Of a stretch of 64,000 nt of DNA, positions 1-44,705 are shown in pieces. Source of the stretch: Thermoflexus sp. (GTDB lineage: Bacteria; Chloroflexota; Anaerolineae; Aggregatilineales; Aggregatilineaceae); NCBI GenBank assembly GCA_020724465.1, contig DYGX01000012.1, forward strand, positions 62,001 through 126,000, given 5' to 3'. Each line of letters begins with the position of its first letter. Position 1 is the first letter of the stretch. A program made the translations under genes and the position numbers. A model generated the notes under the pieces. The model was not told the DNA's origin, searched no databases, and saw nothing but the letters and a program-made list of their open reading frames with translations.

Positions 1-1
1 G

Positions 2-334
2 GGGACGGTCCAGCCGCGCGCCGTGATCGGGGACCGGATCGCCGCCGGCTCGGTCATCGCGACTGTATCCGGCAAGCCGGTGGTAGCGCCCTTCGACGGC
101 GTGCTGCGGGGGTTGATTCATCCATCGGTTTCTGTTACAACCAACATGAAAATCGGCGATCTGGACCCTCGCGGCGAGCCAGCCTACTGCTTCGAGATTT
201 CGGAGAAGTCGCTGGCGATTGGCGGGGGTGTGGTTGAGGCCGTTCTGAGCGCCCCTTCGCTGGCGCCGATCCTGGCATCGGCGCGGGGCCTGGGGACGGC
301 GAGCGCGCCGCACTTGCCAGCGGTGCCGGAATAG
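2..334 (+). CDS. yqeB: YqeB-like selenium-dependent molybdenum hydroxylase maturation protein (5' truncated)
   Basis: This is the C-terminal part of a protein whose reading frame runs open into the left edge of the window, so the start is missing. About 110 residues remain. They contain a biotinyl/lipoyl-like stretch (KPVVAPFDGVLRGLI) and a MKIGDLDPRG segment, which I recognise from the EF2563/YqeB family linked to selenium-dependent molybdenum hydroxylases such as xanthine dehydrogenase. The family's exact chemistry is not settled. The assignment is supported by the next gene, a YqeC-MocA fusion starting 9 bases downstream, since yqeB, yqeC and mocA commonly cluster. A GTG at 23 could be mistaken for a start, but the frame continues upstream of it without a stop. 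Confidence 0.75.
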   Translation, partial: GTVQPRAVIGDRIAAGSVIATVSGKPVVAPFDGVLRGLIHPSVSVTTNMKIGDLDPRGEPAYCFEISEKSLAIGGGVVEAVLSAPSLAPILASARGLGTASAPHLPAVPE

Positions 335-343
335 GATGGGATC

Positions 344-1705
344 ATGCGTCTGGCAGACGCGCTGCGCGTGCAGCGTGGCGACATGGTGGCGTTTGTGGGA
401 GCTGGCGGGAAGACGTCAGCTCTCTTTCGGCTTGCCCACGAGCTGCGCCAGGACGGATGGCGGGTGATCGCGACGACGACGACACGCCTGGCCCGCCACG
501 AGATCGAGCACGTTCCGCACGCGATCGCTGTGGCATCCGGCACCAGCCCGACCATCATCCGCCAGCGCCTTGACGAGCACGGCTTCATTTTCCTCTACAG
601 CTACGATGACCTCAACCACGGCAAGGTAATCGGCCTCGCACCGGAATCGCTGTCGCGGCTGGTCGATGCGGTCAATTCGGATGTGCTGCTGATCGAGGCG
701 GATGGCGCGCGCCGCCTGCCGCTTAAGGCCCCGCGCGCCAACGAACCGGTTCTTCCCGAGGATGTCACGCTGGTTGTGCCGGTCGCCGGAATCGACGCGC
801 TCGGCCAGCCGCTCGACGAGGCCCACGTGTTCAACGTCGAGCGGATCATCGAGCGGTACGGGTTCCCGGAAGGCGAGCCGCTGCTTCCGCCGTGGATGGC
901 CGTCGTTCTGCGCGATCCGGAGTTGGGGCTGCGCCGCGTGCCGGATTCGGCGCGGGTGGTGCCGCTGCTGAACAAGGTTCCGCTGAACGGGTACGGGCGG
1001 GCGCGGGCGCGTCTGGTGGCGCAGCTTGTGCTGCGTTCGACGCGGGTCGAGGCGGTCGCGATGGGCGCGGTGCGCTCCCCGATCGATCCGATCCACGAAC
1101 TTCAGCAGCGGGTGGGCGCGATCGTCCTGGCAGCGGGTCAGTCGACGCGGATGGGCCAGTCGAAGCCGCTGCTACCCTGGAGCGACGGGCAGACGGTGAT
1201 TGAAACGATTGTCCGGCGGTTGCTGATGTTCCGCCTCTCAGAGATCGTGGTCGTGACCGGATTCGAGGGCGAGCGGGTCCGGCAGGCACTGGCGCATCTG
1301 CCCGTTGAGTTCGCCGACAACCCCGCTTACGCCGCTGGTGAGATGATTTCGTCAGTGCGCGCTGGCCTGGCGGCGCTGCCTGACACGACGGCGGGCGCGC
1401 TGGTGGTGCTGGGCGACCAGCCCATGCTCAACGGCCGGGTGGTGGGTCAGGTGCTGGCCGCGTATGCGGAAGGGCGCGGGACGATCGTGGCGCCGGTCTA
1501 TCGTGGTCAGCGCGGACACCCGGTGCTGTTCGACCGCCGCTACTGGCCGGAGCTGCTGGCGCTAGAGCACGGCGCCCCGCGTGACGTGATTCGCCGCTAC
1601 CCCCAGGCGCTGGCCCTGGTCGAGGTGAATACGGACAGCATTCTGGCCGACATCGACACGCCTGAGCAGTATCGCCGCGCCCGGTTGATGGCAGGGCTGC
1701 GCTGA
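344..1705 (+). CDS. yqeC: Fused YqeC - MocA (molybdenum cofactor cytidylyltransferase-like) protein
   Basis: A two-domain protein of 453 residues. Residues 1 to about 250 match the YqeC family (putative selenium-dependent hydroxylase accessory protein), with a P-loop-like GAGGKTS at 19-25 and LLIEADGARRLPLKAP near 115-130. Residues from about 257 form a MocA/NTP-transferase domain with LAAGQSTRMGQSK at 262-274 and a later LGDQPML metal-binding motif. MocA enzymes join CTP to molybdopterin to give the cytosine dinucleotide cofactor used by xanthine-dehydrogenase-type hydroxylases. YqeC and MocA are usually separate proteins, so this is a fusion. A GGATGGGATC stretch before ATG 344 can act as ribosome binding site. 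It is probably co-transcribed with yqeB, 9 bases upstream. Confidence 0.88.
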   Translation: MRLADALRVQRGDMVAFVGAGGKTSALFRLAHELRQDGWRVIATTTTRLARHEIEHVPHAIAVASGTSPTIIRQRLDEHGFIFLYSYDDLNHGKVIGLAPESLSRLVDAVNSDVLLIEADGARRLPLKAPRANEPVLPEDVTLVVPVAGIDALGQPLDEAHVFNVERIIERYGFPEGEPLLPPWMAVVLRDPELGLRRVPDSARVVPLLNKVPLNGYGRARARLVAQLVLRSTRVEAVAMGAVRSPIDPIHELQQRVGAIVLAAGQSTRMGQSKPLLPWSDGQTVIETIVRRLLMFRLSEIVVVTGFEGERVRQALAHLPVEFADNPAYAAGEMISSVRAGLAALPDTTAGALVVLGDQPMLNGRVVGQVLAAYAEGRGTIVAPVYRGQRGHPVLFDRRYWPELLALEHGAPRDVIRRYPQALALVEVNTDSILADIDTPEQYRRARLMAGLR

Positions 1706-36370: not shown

Positions 36371-36411
36371 GCTAGACTTGTGTACGGTTGTTGGCAGATG
36401 GCAGAAGGCCT

Positions 36412-38250
36412 ATGACGAAACGATTTCGACCGGCGCTCGATCTGGAGCGCTATCGCGATCCGCTGTCGCAGATTCTAGCGGCTGTGGCGGCAGAACCCAA
36501 CCTGTCGCGGCAGGGGCTGGCGCGCATCCTGAAGCGCCACCCGAAAGATGGGCGCGGCCTGTTCAGCAAGGATGAGCTGATCGCCGCGTATCGTGCCCTG
36601 GCCGGGACGGGTGGTGTGCCGCCGTATGACGAAGCCGTGATTGAGCGGCTGCGGATGAAGCCGATCCGCACCCTGTCCGGCGTGACGCCGGTCACCGTGC
36701 TGACCAAGCCGTATCCGTGTCCGGGCGAGTGCATTTTCTGCCCGAACGACATCCGCATGCCGAAAAGCTACCTCAGCAGCGAGCCGGGCGCCCAACGCGC
36801 TGAACAGAACGCGTTTGACCCGTATCTGCAGACTTATTCGCGGCTGATGGCGCTGCGCAATACAGGCCATCCCACCAACAAGGTCGAGGTGATCGTTTTG
36901 GGCGGGACGTGGTCGTTCTACCCTGAGACGTACCAGATCTGGTTTGTCAAGCGCGTTTTCGATGCGCTGCGCGACTTTGGGCAGGGGGTCGATGGCCGGG
37001 AGCAGGTGTGGGACGCGCTGCGCGCCGGATCGCAACTGCACCCGGAACGCCGCGTAGCCGCGCAGATCGATCCAGGCGCGACCGAGGGGCAGAGCTACAA
37101 CCGGCTGGTGCAGATGATGTACCGGGACGAGATGCGGCGCTCGCGCGAGCAGGCCCAGGCGATTGCGCGCGGCCAGCGCCCGCGAACCCTGCTTGACGAG
37201 TACGCGACCTGGGACGAACTCGAGGCGGTGCAGCGCGAGAACGAGCACGCAGCGTGCCGCTGCGTTGGGCTGGTGCTGGAGACGCGGCCCGATAACATCA
37301 CGCCCGAGGAAGTCATCCGCATGCGGCGCCTGGGAGCCACGAAGGTTCAGATCGGGATCCAGAGCCTGGATGACGATGTGTTGCGGCTCAACCGGCGCGG
37401 GCACACGGTCGAGCAGACGCGGCGCGCCGTCCGGCTGCTGCGGCAGGCGGGCTTCAAGATCTTCGCGCATTGGATGCCGAACCTGTACGGGTCGTCTCCG
37501 GAGGCCGATATCGCCGACTATCATCGTCTGTTCGCGGATCCTGATTTTCGCCCGGACGAGCTGAAAATCTACCCGTGCTCGCTGATCGAGAGCGCTGAGT
37601 TGATGGAGTACTATCGGGCGAGGCGGTGGCGGCCTTACACCCGCGACGAGTTGCTGCATGTGCTGACCGCGTGTTTCCTGGCGACACCGGAATATTGCCG
37701 GCTGACGCGCGTCGTGCGCGATATTCCGTCGACCGATATCGTGGCGGGTGAGCTGACGACCAATTTCCGGCAGGTGGTCGAGCGCGAGCTGGCGCGGCGT
37801 GGGCTGCGCGGCGCCGACATCCGTTCGCGTGAGATCCGGCATCGCCCGGTCGATCCGGACGCGTTGACGCTCGACGAGCTGGCCTACACGAGCAGCGTCG
37901 GCGACGAGCTTTTCCTTCAGTTTATCACTCCTGAACGCCGCATCGCGGCTTTCCTGCGCCTGTCGCTGCCTGCCGAGCCGCTTCTGGTGCCGGAGCTGGA
38001 CGGCGCGGGGATGATCCGCGAGGTGCATGTCTACGGCCAATCGCTGGCGGTGGGTAACGAAGGGCCTGGACACGCGCAGCATCGTGGCCTGGGGGCGCGT
38101 TTGATCGAGCGGGCGGCAACGATCGCCGCGGAGCGCGGCTATCGCCGCCTGGCTGTGATCTCGGCGGTGGGCACGCGCGCCTACTACCGCCAGCGCGGGT
38201 TCCGGGACGGGGCGCTCTACCAGCTGCGCGACCTGGGCGAGGACCGATGA
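36412..38250 (+). CDS. elp3: Elp3-type tRNA uridine-34 carboxymethyl synthase (radical SAM / GNAT)
   Basis: 612 residues. The radical SAM core carries CX3CX2C (Cys103, Cys107, Cys110 in CPGECIFC), preceded by GVTPVTVLTKPYP and followed by LSSEPGAQRA, VIVLGGTWSFYP, LETRPDNITPEE, LGATKVQIGIQSLDDDVL and FKIFAHWMPNLYGSSPE. The C-terminal GNAT acetyltransferase domain has HVYGQSLAVG, AQHRGLGARLIERA and VGTRAYYRQRGF. Elp3 forms cm5U at the wobble position of tRNA from acetyl-CoA. It is general in eukaryotes and archaea and found in some bacteria, including Chloroflexota. ATG 36412 is chosen for its AGAAGG; other Elongator subunits are absent. Confidence 0.95.
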   Translation: MTKRFRPALDLERYRDPLSQILAAVAAEPNLSRQGLARILKRHPKDGRGLFSKDELIAAYRALAGTGGVPPYDEAVIERLRMKPIRTLSGVTPVTVLTKPYPCPGECIFCPNDIRMPKSYLSSEPGAQRAEQNAFDPYLQTYSRLMALRNTGHPTNKVEVIVLGGTWSFYPETYQIWFVKRVFDALRDFGQGVDGREQVWDALRAGSQLHPERRVAAQIDPGATEGQSYNRLVQMMYRDEMRRSREQAQAIARGQRPRTLLDEYATWDELEAVQRENEHAACRCVGLVLETRPDNITPEEVIRMRRLGATKVQIGIQSLDDDVLRLNRRGHTVEQTRRAVRLLRQAGFKIFAHWMPNLYGSSPEADIADYHRLFADPDFRPDELKIYPCSLIESAELMEYYRARRWRPYTRDELLHVLTACFLATPEYCRLTRVVRDIPSTDIVAGELTTNFRQVVERELARRGLRGADIRSREIRHRPVDPDALTLDELAYTSSVGDELFLQFITPERRIAAFLRLSLPAEPLLVPELDGAGMIREVHVYGQSLAVGNEGPGHAQHRGLGARLIERAATIAAERGYRRLAVISAVGTRAYYRQRGFRDGALYQLRDLGEDR

Positions 38251-38345: not shown

Positions 38346-39236
38346 ATGGCAAACGAGCAGGACGGACTGCAACCGGCCGATGATGCGCCGGGTGGCGCCG
38401 AACCGGAGCCGGCGCGCGGGTTGAGCGTCCCGGAGCCGGCCGGTGTGCGCGCATTGTCGGGCGGAGAAGAAGCTCCCGCGCCGCGCAAGCGACGACCGCG
38501 CCCACCCCTGCCGCCTCAGACGGTTGTCGTGCAGCAACCGCGCAGCGCGCTGAGCACCTGCGCGCTATACGGCGGGCTGGCGCTTTTGGTGATAGTGGTG
38601 GTGGGCGCGTTGGTCACGCTGATGTTTGCCGACTCGGTGACCGACTTCGCCGACAACATGATCAGCGATGTCCGGACCTTTCTGGGACTGGAGGCGGTGA
38701 CGCCAGAGGTTGCCAACACCCAGATCATCGTGCTGGGAATCCGCAATATGGCGCTGCTGCAGACGACGAGCGGCGATCTGCTGATCGAAAAAGAGGTGGT
38801 CGAAGACCAGCCGCTGCGCAAGGATCCGTTCGTTAAAATGCGCTACGTTGGCCGGGTCACGGCAGGGATCGATCTGAGCGCCATCAGCACGGGCGATATC
38901 GTGATCGGGCCGGGGCGCAGTGTGACCGTCACCCTGCCACCCGCGCAGCTCACAGGCTGCTACCTCGAAAACGCGGCGCAGCTTGATGCGAGCTGCGGGA
39001 CGACCTTCCTGGGGCTGACGAGTTGCACGGACAAGCTCAACGAACTGCAACAGGTCGCCCAGCGCCGCGCCAAGGACGATCTGATTGATATGGCGAGCGA
39101 GCTGGACGTCGTCGAGCAGGCGTACGCTGCAGCGGAGACGGCCGTGCGCGCCCTGCTCACCGATCTCGGTTTTGAAAGCGTCCGTTTCGAGCGCAGCGAC
39201 GCAGAAGCGCCGGTCGATCCAAGTTGCCAGCCTTAG
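38346..39236 (+). CDS. DUF4230 domain-containing membrane protein
   Basis: 296 residues. A disordered Pro/Arg-rich N-terminus (1-70), one membrane helix at about 73-97 (YGGLALLVIVVVGALVTLMF), then a DUF4230-type domain: IIVLGIRNMALLQTTSGDLLI, VGRVTAGIDLSAISTGDIVIG and PPAQLTGCYLENAAQLDASCG followed by a long helix (about 225-275). The family is of unknown function and its outer domain is probably periplasmic or external. It ends sharing bases TTAG (39233-39236) with the stop of the convergent lipM gene. Confidence 0.8.
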   Translation: MANEQDGLQPADDAPGGAEPEPARGLSVPEPAGVRALSGGEEAPAPRKRRPRPPLPPQTVVVQQPRSALSTCALYGGLALLVIVVVGALVTLMFADSVTDFADNMISDVRTFLGLEAVTPEVANTQIIVLGIRNMALLQTTSGDLLIEKEVVEDQPLRKDPFVKMRYVGRVTAGIDLSAISTGDIVIGPGRSVTVTLPPAQLTGCYLENAAQLDASCGTTFLGLTSCTDKLNELQQVAQRRAKDDLIDMASELDVVEQAYAAAETAVRALLTDLGFESVRFERSDAEAPVDPSCQP

Positions 39237-40170: not shown

Positions 40171-41469
40171 ATGCCGGAGCGCCGCGTTCCCACACAGCCG
40201 CACAACGAGCCGGGCCGGCGGTCGTACGACGACGGGTCGCCCGACCCGCGCGAAGCGTTTACGTCGGGGCACTGGTACAGCTATCCGGGGCAGGCGCCCC
40301 GCCGGCGCCGGCCGGAAGCGCCCGCGCCCGACGAGAACGGGTGGCGCGGCCCTGGTAGCTCGGCTCGCGAGCGGGTCCAGCGGCGTAAGGTTCGCAGGCA
40401 GCTCGGCGCACCCGACGACTGGGCCTGGGTTGTGATCGCGGTAGCGCTGCTGGGCGTCACAGCCGTGATGAGTATCGCCATCTTTCTGGTGCTGGACACG
40501 GCGCGGCCGGGCAGCAACAGCGCCGTCTCGACGAGTGTCCCGGTCGAGCCGACGTCTGTTCTGTACGGGCCGGGTGGGATCCTTGAAGCCAGCTCAGCCG
40601 GGAGCGGAGCGGGGCTGTTGGGTGACGGCGAGAGCATGATCATCCGCCCGTGGGACGGCAAAGAACGCTTCAACATCCTGGTTATGGGGATGGACCGGCG
40701 CCCAGGCGAAGCCGGGGGCGGCTACCGCACCGATACGATGATCCTGATCAGCCTGGACCCGAACACCAAGCGCGTCGGTATGCTGAGCATCCCGCGCGAT
40801 CTTTACGTCGACATTCCGGGCTACGGGCTCGACCGCATCAACACAGCCTTCGCAGCGGGCGAGCTGGAATCGCCCGGCGGGGGGCCGCGACTGGCGATGC
40901 AGACGGTTCAATACAACTTCGGCATTCCGGTGAACGACTATGCCATCATCGATTTCACCGCATTCATCAAAGTGATTGATCTGATCGGTGGGATCGACGT
41001 CTACGTTCGCGAGCCGATCAACGACCCGACCTATCCGGACATGAATTACGGCTACGATCCGTTTTACATCGGGGCCGGATGGCAGCATATGGACGGGGCG
41101 ACCGCGCTGAAGTACGCGCGCAGCCGGCACAACTCCGATGATATCGACCGGCAGCGCCGCCAGCAAGAAGTGATCTACGCGGTGCGCGACCGCGTCCTGG
41201 CCTACGATATGATCGCCCGGCTGGCGCCGCAGGCGTTTACCCTGTGGGCCGATCTGCGCGAAGGGATCCAGACCGGGCTGTCGCTCGATCAGATGCTGCA
41301 GCTCGCGTGGTATGTCAAAGACATCCCGGCTGAGAATTTCAGCCGGGGGGTGGTGGGCTGGGAGCACGTCATCCCGACCAACTGGCAGGGCATGGATATT
41401 CTGGTGCCCAACCGGGAGCGGCTCGGCCAGCTCATGGTTCAGGTTTTCGGTCCGGATTATAATCAGTGA
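40171..41469 (+). CDS. LytR-CpsA-Psr (LCP) family protein
   Basis: 432 residues. A long Pro/Arg-rich cytoplasmic tail, a membrane helix at about 87-110 (WVVIAVALLGVTAVMSIAIF), then the LCP domain with FNILVMGMDRRPGE, YRTDTMILISLDPNTKRVGMLSIPRDLYVDIPGYG in parts, RINTAFAAG, YAIIDFTAFIKVIDLIGGIDVYV and LKYARSRHNSDDIDRQRRQQEVI. The Arg/Asp set for polyprenyl-pyrophosphate binding is present. LCP enzymes attach wall glycopolymers to peptidoglycan; here it may act with the WecA-like transferase and the glycan operon. GGAG lies 7 bases before ATG 40171. Confidence 0.92.
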   Translation: MPERRVPTQPHNEPGRRSYDDGSPDPREAFTSGHWYSYPGQAPRRRRPEAPAPDENGWRGPGSSARERVQRRKVRRQLGAPDDWAWVVIAVALLGVTAVMSIAIFLVLDTARPGSNSAVSTSVPVEPTSVLYGPGGILEASSAGSGAGLLGDGESMIIRPWDGKERFNILVMGMDRRPGEAGGGYRTDTMILISLDPNTKRVGMLSIPRDLYVDIPGYGLDRINTAFAAGELESPGGGPRLAMQTVQYNFGIPVNDYAIIDFTAFIKVIDLIGGIDVYVREPINDPTYPDMNYGYDPFYIGAGWQHMDGATALKYARSRHNSDDIDRQRRQQEVIYAVRDRVLAYDMIARLAPQAFTLWADLREGIQTGLSLDQMLQLAWYVKDIPAENFSRGVVGWEHVIPTNWQGMDILVPNRERLGQLMVQVFGPDYNQ

Positions 41470-41588
41470 TCTGTCGTCCTGACCTGCGTATCGAGAGCTA
41501 GCGCGCGGGGTTATCCCTCATGGAATCGAGCGGCGGCGTGCGCGCAGCCGGCCCGATTCGATCACCGTCCGAGGAGTCTGGTTCGTTC

Positions 41589-43547
41589 ATGTCTGCCATC
41601 GAAGAAATCATCGCTGCCCTGCATCGTTACCGGCGTCGCAAGCTGACCGTTCCGTATTATCTTCCCGGTTTGTGGATTGACGCGCAGAGCACGGCTGCCC
41701 AGGCTGTGAATCCCTATGCCTTCTATGCCGGGCGCCTGAAGGCGATCCTGCGCGAGGATCCTGTCCCACTGGTTCAGGGTGCAGGCGGGGGCGATTGGTC
41801 ACGCCATGCCCGCGTGTACAATCTGTTCCCGCGCGTGACGACGGCCTTCGATCATGATCAGGACGGCGTGTTGTCGATCGAGCCGGGCGCGGACGGCTGG
41901 CGCGAGACCGGGTCGCTGTTGAAGTGCATCGCGCTTCTGCCGTACCTGCGCAGTATGGAAATCAATACCGTGCACCTGCTGCCGGTTAATGCCGTGGGCC
42001 GCGACGGGCGCAAGGGGACGCTCGGCTCCCCATACGCGGTCCGCGATCCATACCGCATTGACGAAAACCTGGACGAGCCGGCGCTGGGGCTGGATGTCGA
42101 CGTGTTGTTCGCCGGGTTTGTCGAGGCGGCGCACCGGCTCGGGATCCGGGTGGTGATGGAGTTTGTGCCGCGCACCGGCGCGAAAGATTCCGCGTGGATC
42201 GCGCAGCATCCCGAGTGGTTCTACTGGATTCGCGCAGAGATTCCGGACCGCCAGGCAGGGGTGCCGGATATGGCTGCCTTTGGCGCGCCGGCCTTTCCCT
42301 TCGACGAGTTGCAGCGCGCGAAGGACAAAGTGATGCGCCAGGACTTCACCGCGCTGCCCGCTCCGCCCAAAGCCTATCGCGCGATGTTCACCGCTCCGCC
42401 GCCGCCGGACCGCGTGTTTCTGGAGCACGGGCGCTGGATCGGCGTGCTGCCAGACGGTACGCGGGTTCGCGTTCCCGGCGCGTTCTCCGATTGGCCGCCG
42501 GACGACCCGCAGCCCCCGTGGAGCGATGTCACCTACCTGCGGTTGTACGACCATCCGGATTTCAACTACGTCGCCTATAACACGATCCGCATGTACGACC
42601 GGCGGCTGGCCAGACCCGAAAACGCCGTCGCGGACTTGTGGAACGCGATTGTGGGGATCATCCCGTCCTACCAGGAGCGGTTCGGTATCGACGGGGTGAT
42701 GATCGATATGGGGCACGCGCTACCGTCAGCGCTGAAACAACGCATGGTCGCCGCGGCCCGGCAGATCAATCCGGACTTCGCTTTCTGGGACGAGAACTTC
42801 GCTATCGACGCGCAGAGCGTCGCGGAAGGCTACAACGCGGTGGTCGGATATTTCCTGTTCGACCTGCACCAACCCGACCGGCTGCGCGAGTTCTTACGGC
42901 GGCTGACACGAGAGCAGGTGCCCGTGCCGTTCTTTGCCACGCCCGAGAACCACAACACTCCGCGCGCCTATACCCGCCCGTATCCGCTGGAGTTCGTGCA
43001 TTACGCGCTGGCGATGAGCGTCGTCGTGCCGGGTATTCCGACCATCCACAGCGGGTTTGAGCTGATGGAAACCAAGCCGATCAACACCGGCCTGAACTTC
43101 ACGCCTGAGATGCTCCGCGCGCACCCGACCGAATCGCTGCCGCTGTTCAGCGAATGGGCGTACAACTGGACTCGGCCGCACAATCTGGTCGGCTCGATTC
43201 GCTACGCGTTCGGGCTGCGCCGGCGCTACGATGCGCTGCTATCCAATCCGGATCCGGCGACGTGCGCCATGGGCTACGGCGATAACCCGAACCTGATCGT
43301 CTTCGTCCGGCGCGATCACGAGCGCGCTCTGGTGGTGGTGGCCAGTTCCAGCATGGGGACGGTCGAGAGCGGGCGGGCACACGTGCCGATCGCGGATTAC
43401 GCGCTCACGCCGCTGTGGGGAACAGACGGCTCGCTGCGTAGCACCGAAACGCTGTCGTTCGATGTCCGGCTGGATAACGGGCACGTCCTGATCGTTGAGG
43501 ATGGAAACACACTCGCACGGGCGAGCAACCGGCGCAACCCGGCCTAG
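41589..43547 (+). CDS. GH13 (alpha-amylase family)-like protein with altered conserved motifs
   Basis: 652 residues with an N-terminal domain, a (beta/alpha)8 barrel of GH13 type and a C-terminal beta domain; overall closest in look to maltosyltransferase/GlgE-like enzymes. The nucleophile Asp373 (IDGVMIDMGHALP) and acid Glu402 (FWDENF) are present. However the nearly invariant Arg two residues before the nucleophile is Met, region I reads VVMEFVPRTG instead of the DxVxNH pattern, and region IV reads ENHNTPR with Asn456 where the third catalytic Asp is expected. Activity may therefore differ or be lost. ATG 41589 follows GAGGAG by 12 bases; ATG 41520 is an alternative. The stop shares CTAG with the convergent kinase-like gene. 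Confidence 0.78.
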   Translation: MSAIEEIIAALHRYRRRKLTVPYYLPGLWIDAQSTAAQAVNPYAFYAGRLKAILREDPVPLVQGAGGGDWSRHARVYNLFPRVTTAFDHDQDGVLSIEPGADGWRETGSLLKCIALLPYLRSMEINTVHLLPVNAVGRDGRKGTLGSPYAVRDPYRIDENLDEPALGLDVDVLFAGFVEAAHRLGIRVVMEFVPRTGAKDSAWIAQHPEWFYWIRAEIPDRQAGVPDMAAFGAPAFPFDELQRAKDKVMRQDFTALPAPPKAYRAMFTAPPPPDRVFLEHGRWIGVLPDGTRVRVPGAFSDWPPDDPQPPWSDVTYLRLYDHPDFNYVAYNTIRMYDRRLARPENAVADLWNAIVGIIPSYQERFGIDGVMIDMGHALPSALKQRMVAAARQINPDFAFWDENFAIDAQSVAEGYNAVVGYFLFDLHQPDRLREFLRRLTREQVPVPFFATPENHNTPRAYTRPYPLEFVHYALAMSVVVPGIPTIHSGFELMETKPINTGLNFTPEMLRAHPTESLPLFSEWAYNWTRPHNLVGSIRYAFGLRRRYDALLSNPDPATCAMGYGDNPNLIVFVRRDHERALVVVASSSMGTVESGRAHVPIADYALTPLWGTDGSLRSTETLSFDVRLDNGHVLIVEDGNTLARASNRRNPA

Positions 43548-44596
43548 ATCAGGAGCAGCGCCAGCGCGGCCAACCCCAGCCCGATCCCGGCGCCGATGAT
43601 CAGCCAGGGTTTTTTCGAGGAGGGCTTCGGCGGCAATGTATCGTCCTGTGGGGTGGGGGCGGCGCGTGTCTTCCGAAACGCGTTCTCTTCCGAACGGCGC
43701 CGGACGTCACGGGTCAGGCGCCTGTCGAGGTTCAGCGTCGCGTAGTCATCGCCGCTGGCGCTGTTGAGCAGCGCGACCATTTCCCTGACGGATACGAATC
43801 GGTCCTTCGGATTCTTCTGCAACGCGATCTGGATCACACGCTCGATGCGCGGATCCAGCCCGGCTTTGCGCTGGCTGGGTGGAACAGGCGCCTCGTACAG
43901 ATGTTGGGCGACGATCTCATCGCGCGTGCTGCCCTTGAAGGGCACGTCCCCCACCGCCAGCTCATGCAGCAGCACCCCAAGCGCGTACACGTCTACCGCC
44001 GGGGTTGGCTGAAGCTGCGCCGCCTGTTCGGGTGCCCAATAGGCGATCGCGCTGAGCCGGAAGGGCTGAGCCGGCGGCGTGGCCGGATCCAGGCACGACG
44101 TGGCGAAATCGGTCAGGACCGGCCTGCCGTCCGCCCCCAGGAGAATCTGCTCCGGGCGCAGGTTGGCATGCACAATGCCCTGATCGTGAGCGGCGGCCAC
44201 GGCGTCCACAATCGGTGTGAAGAGGCGCAGCACATCGTCGCGCGGGTAGCCGCTTGGATGGGCGGCGATGCTATCGCGCAGCGTCCCGCCCGGCAGAAAT
44301 TCCATGGCGATGAAGTACAGCTCGCGCTCGTGCTCGGCGCCAAAGTCGTAGACGCGGGCGATGTGCGGGTGAACCAGCGACGCGAGGCGCGCGGCTTCTT
44401 CGAGGAAGCAGGTGGCGTGGGATGGCCCTCGGATGACGCCGGGCAGAAACACTTTGACGGCCACATCGCTGCGCGACCCGGTGCGCGACGCGCGATACAC
44501 CTCCGCCTGACGCCCCCGGCCAATGAGATGCTGAATTGTGTACGGTCCGACGCGCTGGCCTGGACTCAATTGCGACAGCGGTTTTGTGATGCTCAT
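43544..44596 (-). CDS. Protein kinase-like protein, probable pseudokinase, with C-terminal membrane helix
   Basis: 350 residues: a PknB-type kinase fold (about 17-285), a polar linker, and one membrane helix at the very C-terminus. The glycine loop (GRGRQAEVY), the ATP Lys (VAVKVF, Lys48) and APE-like YWAPEQAAQ are present. The catalytic loop HRDLKPxN reads HANLRPEQ (His143-Ala-Asn145 ... Gln150) and DFG reads DFA, so the catalytic Asp and metal-binding Asn are replaced. The helix is at the C-terminus with no outer domain. It may bind ATP and act as a scaffold. ATG 44596 is chosen for AGGTGA 6 bases upstream; GTG 44605 is the alternative. Confidence 0.85.
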   Translation of the reverse strand: MSITKPLSQLSPGQRVGPYTIQHLIGRGRQAEVYRASRTGSRSDVAVKVFLPGVIRGPSHATCFLEEAARLASLVHPHIARVYDFGAEHERELYFIAMEFLPGGTLRDSIAAHPSGYPRDDVLRLFTPIVDAVAAAHDQGIVHANLRPEQILLGADGRPVLTDFATSCLDPATPPAQPFRLSAIAYWAPEQAAQLQPTPAVDVYALGVLLHELAVGDVPFKGSTRDEIVAQHLYEAPVPPSQRKAGLDPRIERVIQIALQKNPKDRFVSVREMVALLNSASGDDYATLNLDRRLTRDVRRRSEENAFRKTRAAPTPQDDTLPPKPSSKKPWLIIGAGIGLGLAALALLLI

Positions 44597-44705
44597 GCCC
44601 GTCACCTACGCCCCGCGTTCAGGCCGCCGCGGGCCGTGTCGGGTTGGCAACTCGGCTGGCGGCGGCCAGGTGAGTTTGCTTTGCTAACTGCGGCGTTCGC
44701 CGGTT

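Follow-up and report, generated by a model that had tools for sequence, protein, structure and literature searches.

Can a GH13-like protein still be an enzyme when it keeps the catalytic nucleophile and the acid/base but lacks the Arg and the third Asp of its family? The question is raised by an open reading frame in a 64,000-nucleotide stretch of DNA from Thermoflexus sp. (contig DYGX01000012.1), the whole of which we call the window and whose numbering is used throughout. The frame runs on the + strand from an ATG at 41589 to a stop at 43547, is open throughout, and encodes 652 aa. Another in-frame ATG occurs upstream, at 41520, but alignment A1 favors 41589: in all 26 rows the start coincides with M1, which is invariant. 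As a preliminary description of the locus had stated, the gene lies between an LCP gene (upstream, same strand) and a kinase-domain gene (downstream, opposite strand), the latter with a 4-base overlap. The features discussed below are as follows.

41589-43547, + strand: maltosyltransferase (MTase)-like protein of 652 aa with a GH13 fold; no membrane segment seen
42012-42014, + strand: K142 in the KGTLGSP block; unchanged on the tree, opposite K151 of Thermotoga maritima MTase (1gju)
42144-42191, + strand: region I, residues 186-201 (IRVVMEFVPRTGAKDS); the counterpart in 1gju is VILDFIPRTAARDS
42159-42161, + strand: E191, region I; invariant in the family
42171-42173, + strand: R195, region I; invariant in the family
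42186-42188, + strand: D200, region I; invariant in the family
42699-42701, + strand: M371, where GH13 enzymes carry Arg (R383 in 1gju); 117 of 133 relatives have Met and 16 have Leu
42705-42707, + strand: D373, nucleophile position (D385 of 1gju); 133/133
42792-42794, + strand: E402, acid/base position (E414 of 1gju); 133/133
42951-42956, + strand: H455 and N456, region IV; N456 for the third Asp (D468 of 1gju) in 132/133, H455 is Pro in 1gju
40171-41469, + strand: LytR-CpsA-Psr (LCP) gene, upstream of the MTase-like gene; family nearby in 19 of 80 loci
43544-44605, - strand: protein-kinase-domain (Ser/Thr) gene, convergent, with a 4-base overlap with the stop; homologue in 10 of 80 loci

Relationship to Thermotoga Maltosyltransferase

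The best sequence match is the T. maritima MTase (phmmer E-value 1.9e-72, residues 39-532), with which the protein is co-linear over its full length at 27-34% identity. Pfam gave a marginal match to PF14701 (hDGE_amylase, 28.3 against a cut-off of 27) and a sub-threshold match to PF00128 (Alpha-amylase, 15.5 against a cut-off of 22), and NCBIfam returned very weak matches only. An AlphaFold2 model built from the 47-row alignment A2 was confident (pLDDT 91, pTM 0.92) and superposed on 1gju with a Z score of 46.5 at 3.0 Å across 570 residues (2..638 of the model on 1..636 of the chain). The α-amylase-type TIM-barrel fold is present, with many GH13 chains matched at Z 27-46.5; the chains after 1gju scored Z 29.7 and lower. 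Foldseek likewise returned 1gju with an E-value of 2.8e-42 and a runner-up at 8.9e-21. GlgE, the structural reference proposed in the preliminary description, is displaced by the nearer MTase (Z 29.0 versus 46.5).

Since 1gju is matched end to end and far above the other GH13 chains, this is a full-length MTase-type protein, more than a GH13 barrel, with the homology and domain layout of the Thermotoga-type enzyme. At 67 of the 95 family-conserved positions (at least 97% conserved and aligned to MTase), the residue is identical in MTase. The MTase-like family is sister to MTase among the sequences sampled, and the gene probably encodes a starch- or glycogen-handling enzyme related to the Thermotoga maltosyltransferase.

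Composition of the Active Site

Alignment to 1gju pairs E191 with D201, R195 with R205, M371 with R383, D373 with D385, H376 with H388, E402 with E414, H455 with P467, N456 with D468, and R459 with R471. The Asp nucleophile and Glu acid/base required of a GH13 enzyme are thus retained as D373 and E402. The Arg found two residues before the nucleophile in GH13 is Met or Leu in all 133 relatives, and N456 occupies the position of the third catalytic Asp, the transition-state stabilizer. Within the MTase set D201, R383, D385, E414, and D468, only the equivalents of D385 and E414 remain. The T. maritima MTase (1gju/1gjw) shares the co-linear arrangement, the domain layout, a region I of the type DFIPRTA, the KG..SP block, and the positions of nucleophile and acid/base with the window family. 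It differs in having Arg383, Asp468, Asp201, and Pro467, whose counterparts in the window family are Met/Leu, Asn, Glu, and His; across the classical conserved regions, the departures from MTase are E191, M/L371, H455, and N456.

The residues reported in the preliminary description (D373 in GVMIDMGH, Met371, E402, N456 in ENHNTPR, and VVMEFVPRTG at 188-197) read exactly as quoted there, and the alignment of N456 with D468 of 1gju places it on the active site, refuting the off-site alignment that had been allowed for. Its remark that region I is odd needs qualification: the segment does differ from DxVxNH, but most of the difference is MTase inheritance. The absence of DxxxNH is an MTase trait because 1gju has DFIPRTA, and only the exchange of Asp for Glu191 has been added.

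Conservation and Selection across Phyla

Three sources supplied relatives: 101 genomes of the order to which the window genome belongs, with 41 strong matches; named genome contigs, from which the best 80 candidate loci were kept; and phylum-wide samples. They are labelled Chloroflexota, Bacteroidota, Ignavibacteriota, Chlorobiota, Verrucomicrobiota, Lentisphaerota, Elusimicrobiota, and Bipolaricaulota, and the family extends over at least seven bacterial phyla. The distribution is patchy. Across the window's phylum, 3 of 400 genomes carry the gene, the window genome included; sampling 345 genomes from the phylum of the Ignavibacteriae relative L064 yielded 109 strong matches, and two other phyla gave 6 of 100 genomes and 3 strong matches in 199 genomes. 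The family is common in places, yet barely recognized by the Pfam and NCBIfam models described above.

E191, R195, D200, D373, H376, E402, R459, E491, and N499 are invariant in 133 distinct sequences. No Arg occurs at position 371, and position 456 is Asn in all relatives but one, which has Asp. The altered residues noted in the preliminary description are real, but they are family-wide and not private to this genome. On a tree of 95 sequences spanning 44.5 substitutions per site, with the MTase branch left out, the median site changed 25 times; D373, E402, E191, R195, D200, H376, H455, R459, E491, and N499 changed zero times, and position 371 changed five times, on every occasion between Met and Leu. 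The sole relative read with Asp456 (L103, 9986-11647) retains Met371, and its Asp is most simply a reversion because it is nested among Asn members. Among the sequences read, from about 1,150 mostly sampled genomes outside Thermotogota, we saw no Arg-bearing relative nearer than MTase. The suggestion that conserved Met and Asn in orthologues would mark a distinct group is borne out, and orthologues with the standard Arg were not seen. A few members (L168, L172, L174, L176, and L177) are shorter, at about 530 aa, and seemingly without the C-terminal domain.

The dN/dS ratio is 0.06 against the nearest, 96%-identical copy and 0.03 for another close pair within the family; against more distant copies, where dS is high, it is 0.15-0.26. 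Elsewhere in this genome, six ordinary GH13 loci with readable motifs retain both the Arg (GFRVD, GWRLD, GFRLD, GIRFD, and GVRCD) and the third Asp (HD, region IV). Chance, sequencing error, and decay were considered as sources of the changes and rejected on the strength of the 133 relatives, the dN/dS values, and these canonical GH13s; decay of the gene is very unlikely. The MTase-like family is an old group under selection. With two of four residues lost and the rest frozen in at least seven phyla, it is a natural experiment on the necessity of each residue and on possible substitutes. It also carries a warning, as motif-based rules would call its proteins dead.

Proposed Reaction

Although its active site is unusual, the protein is probably functional as an enzyme rather than dead. 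The reading we favor, at a probability of roughly 0.52, is that it may act as an intracellular retaining α-glucan (probably maltosyl) transferase, sister to the Thermotoga-type MTase, with a rebuilt -1 subsite. Such an enzyme would transfer short pieces, probably maltosyl groups, from one maltodextrin or glycogen chain to another. D373 would attack the anomeric carbon of the -1 glucose, and E402 would protonate the leaving chain and then activate the acceptor in an ordinary GH13 double displacement. In the putative rebuilt subsite, the Arg that normally pairs with the nucleophile has given way to Met/Leu, the Asn in place of the third Asp would keep a hydrogen bond without the charge, the region I Asp is replaced by Glu191, one carbon longer, and region IV has a His absent from MTase. 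R195 or R459 are candidates to stand in for the Arg. Since the losses comprise one positive and one negative charge, the net charge is unchanged.

Activity is suggested because the nucleophile and acid/base, on which the covalent chemistry depends, have stayed fixed along with most of the MTase site, and maltosyl-type transfer because MTase is the relative. Against this, canonical GH13 enzymes are usually impaired or inactivated when a catalytic residue is altered (PMC5347038), and conservation by itself would also fit a role in sugar binding. The closest precedent comes from the BmaN1 α-amylase of Bacillus megaterium (GH13_45), in which the third Asp is His across the group and which is reported to be active on starch (PMC5347038). 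Both groups have replaced this Asp throughout, but the window protein has Asn and not the His of the aberrant GH13_45 triad, its family is closest to MTase, and the Arg is lost too. The GH13_48 maltogenic amylases (4gkl, 3dhu) share the GRKGTLGSPYA block and HPEWF; their sequence match is local (residues 117-227), their fold scores are Z 27.1-27.5, and in 4gkl region I contains NH and region IV contains Asp. Members of GH13_48 without catalytic residues have been noted (PMC11239784). Among the papers searched, a limited open-access set, we found no described group with both the Arg and the third-Asp changes.

Alternative Functions

An unlikely but serious alternative is that this is a retaining enzyme of GH13 fold whose donor or reaction differs, the rebuilt -1 subsite taking a ligand that is not a neutral glucan end: a sugar phosphate (as in GlgE), a modified sugar, or phosphate as acceptor. 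The changes at E191, M/L371, H455, and N456 sit in the catalytic pocket and are kept across phyla, and the paired loss of a positive and a negative charge may suit a differently charged ligand. GlgE (GH13_3), which shares the GH13 fold and, as an idea, intracellular maltosyl transfer, is among the next folds after MTase. Region I of GlgE is likewise without DxxxNH. The agreement with MTase at 67 of 95 conserved positions points the other way, as do the scanned neighbors, among which maltokinase, TreS, and GlgB were not seen. GlgE itself gives a much weaker sequence and fold match than MTase, and the glgE gene is described as co-transcribed with glgB (PMC11046441), whereas the window gene has LCP and kinase neighbors. 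Just as doubtful is the broader proposal of a widespread undescribed family that would carry out retaining glycosyl transfer while lacking the Arg and third Asp deemed essential in GH13, through a rebuilt -1 subsite and with a donor or reaction new to the family.

Less probable again is a noncatalytic α-glucan-binding or regulatory protein, comparable in idea to plant isoamylase 2. Two GH13 residues regarded as invariant are gone in essentially all 133 relatives, and nonenzymatic GH13-fold proteins do exist (PMC8537225). Some rBAT orthologues lose parts of the triad, and the rBAT and 4F2hc ectodomains sit behind a membrane segment (PMC8537225). The nucleophile and acid/base of the window family, unlike the rBAT triad, are unchanged in 133 sequences, and many polar pocket residues are likewise invariant. 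Nor do we see the relaxed constraint on catalytic residues expected of a GH13 pseudoenzyme, as D373 and E402 persist over the full 44.5 substitutions per site; together with the dN/dS range of 0.03-0.26, this argues against inactivity of the window protein, the usual outcome of such changes according to the preliminary description. A role as a transporter heavy chain like 4F2hc/rBAT, also raised earlier, has in its favor only that heavy chains of this kind are themselves modified GH13 folds, and it is highly improbable, because the protein has no transmembrane segment before the GH13-like domain or elsewhere (best 19-residue mean hydropathy 1.33), is closest to MTase in sequence and fold, and is without a conserved transporter partner in the window lineage.

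Genomic Context

In the 80 + 20 loci compared, the surroundings of the MTase-like gene mostly have nothing in common from one phylum to the next and consist largely of housekeeping genes, so context does not reveal the substrate. uvrC lies directly upstream in 14 Bacteroidota/Ignavibacteriota loci (L169-L177, L090, L096, L097, L101, and L104), several with a 4-base overlap. A PfkB-family kinase, which matches many kinase families weakly, follows the gene in eight loci, from Chlorobiota and in part from the Bacteroidota phylum (L087, L094, L100, L106, and L178-L181). The only α-glucan hints nearby are a MalE-type ABC transporter, which follows the MTase-like gene in L067 (L074 shows these clusters too), and a GH57 gene that follows it in L064. 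Reading function from neighbors was rejected, as the loci differ between phyla and the hints are partial. Co-occurrence with glycogen genes was set aside as a clue for a different reason: GlgA (98 of 101 relatives) and GH77 (85 of 101) are near universal in the order, which makes it uninformative. Alongside GlgA and GH77, the window genome carries a phosphorylase and six or more GH13 loci, a glycogen setting in keeping with the favored reading. A plasmid search gave no match.

The 19 loci with an LCP-family gene nearby are all labelled Chloroflexota, and the adjacency in the window and in loci L031-L052 could reflect a link to a cell-surface polymer. Farther upstream in the window, the + strand carries a gene at 36388-38250 with Radical_SAM, Radical_SAM_C, and acetyltransferase (GNAT) matches, a layout like that of a bacterial Elp3 homologue, followed at 38346-39236 by a gene for a DUF4230 protein.
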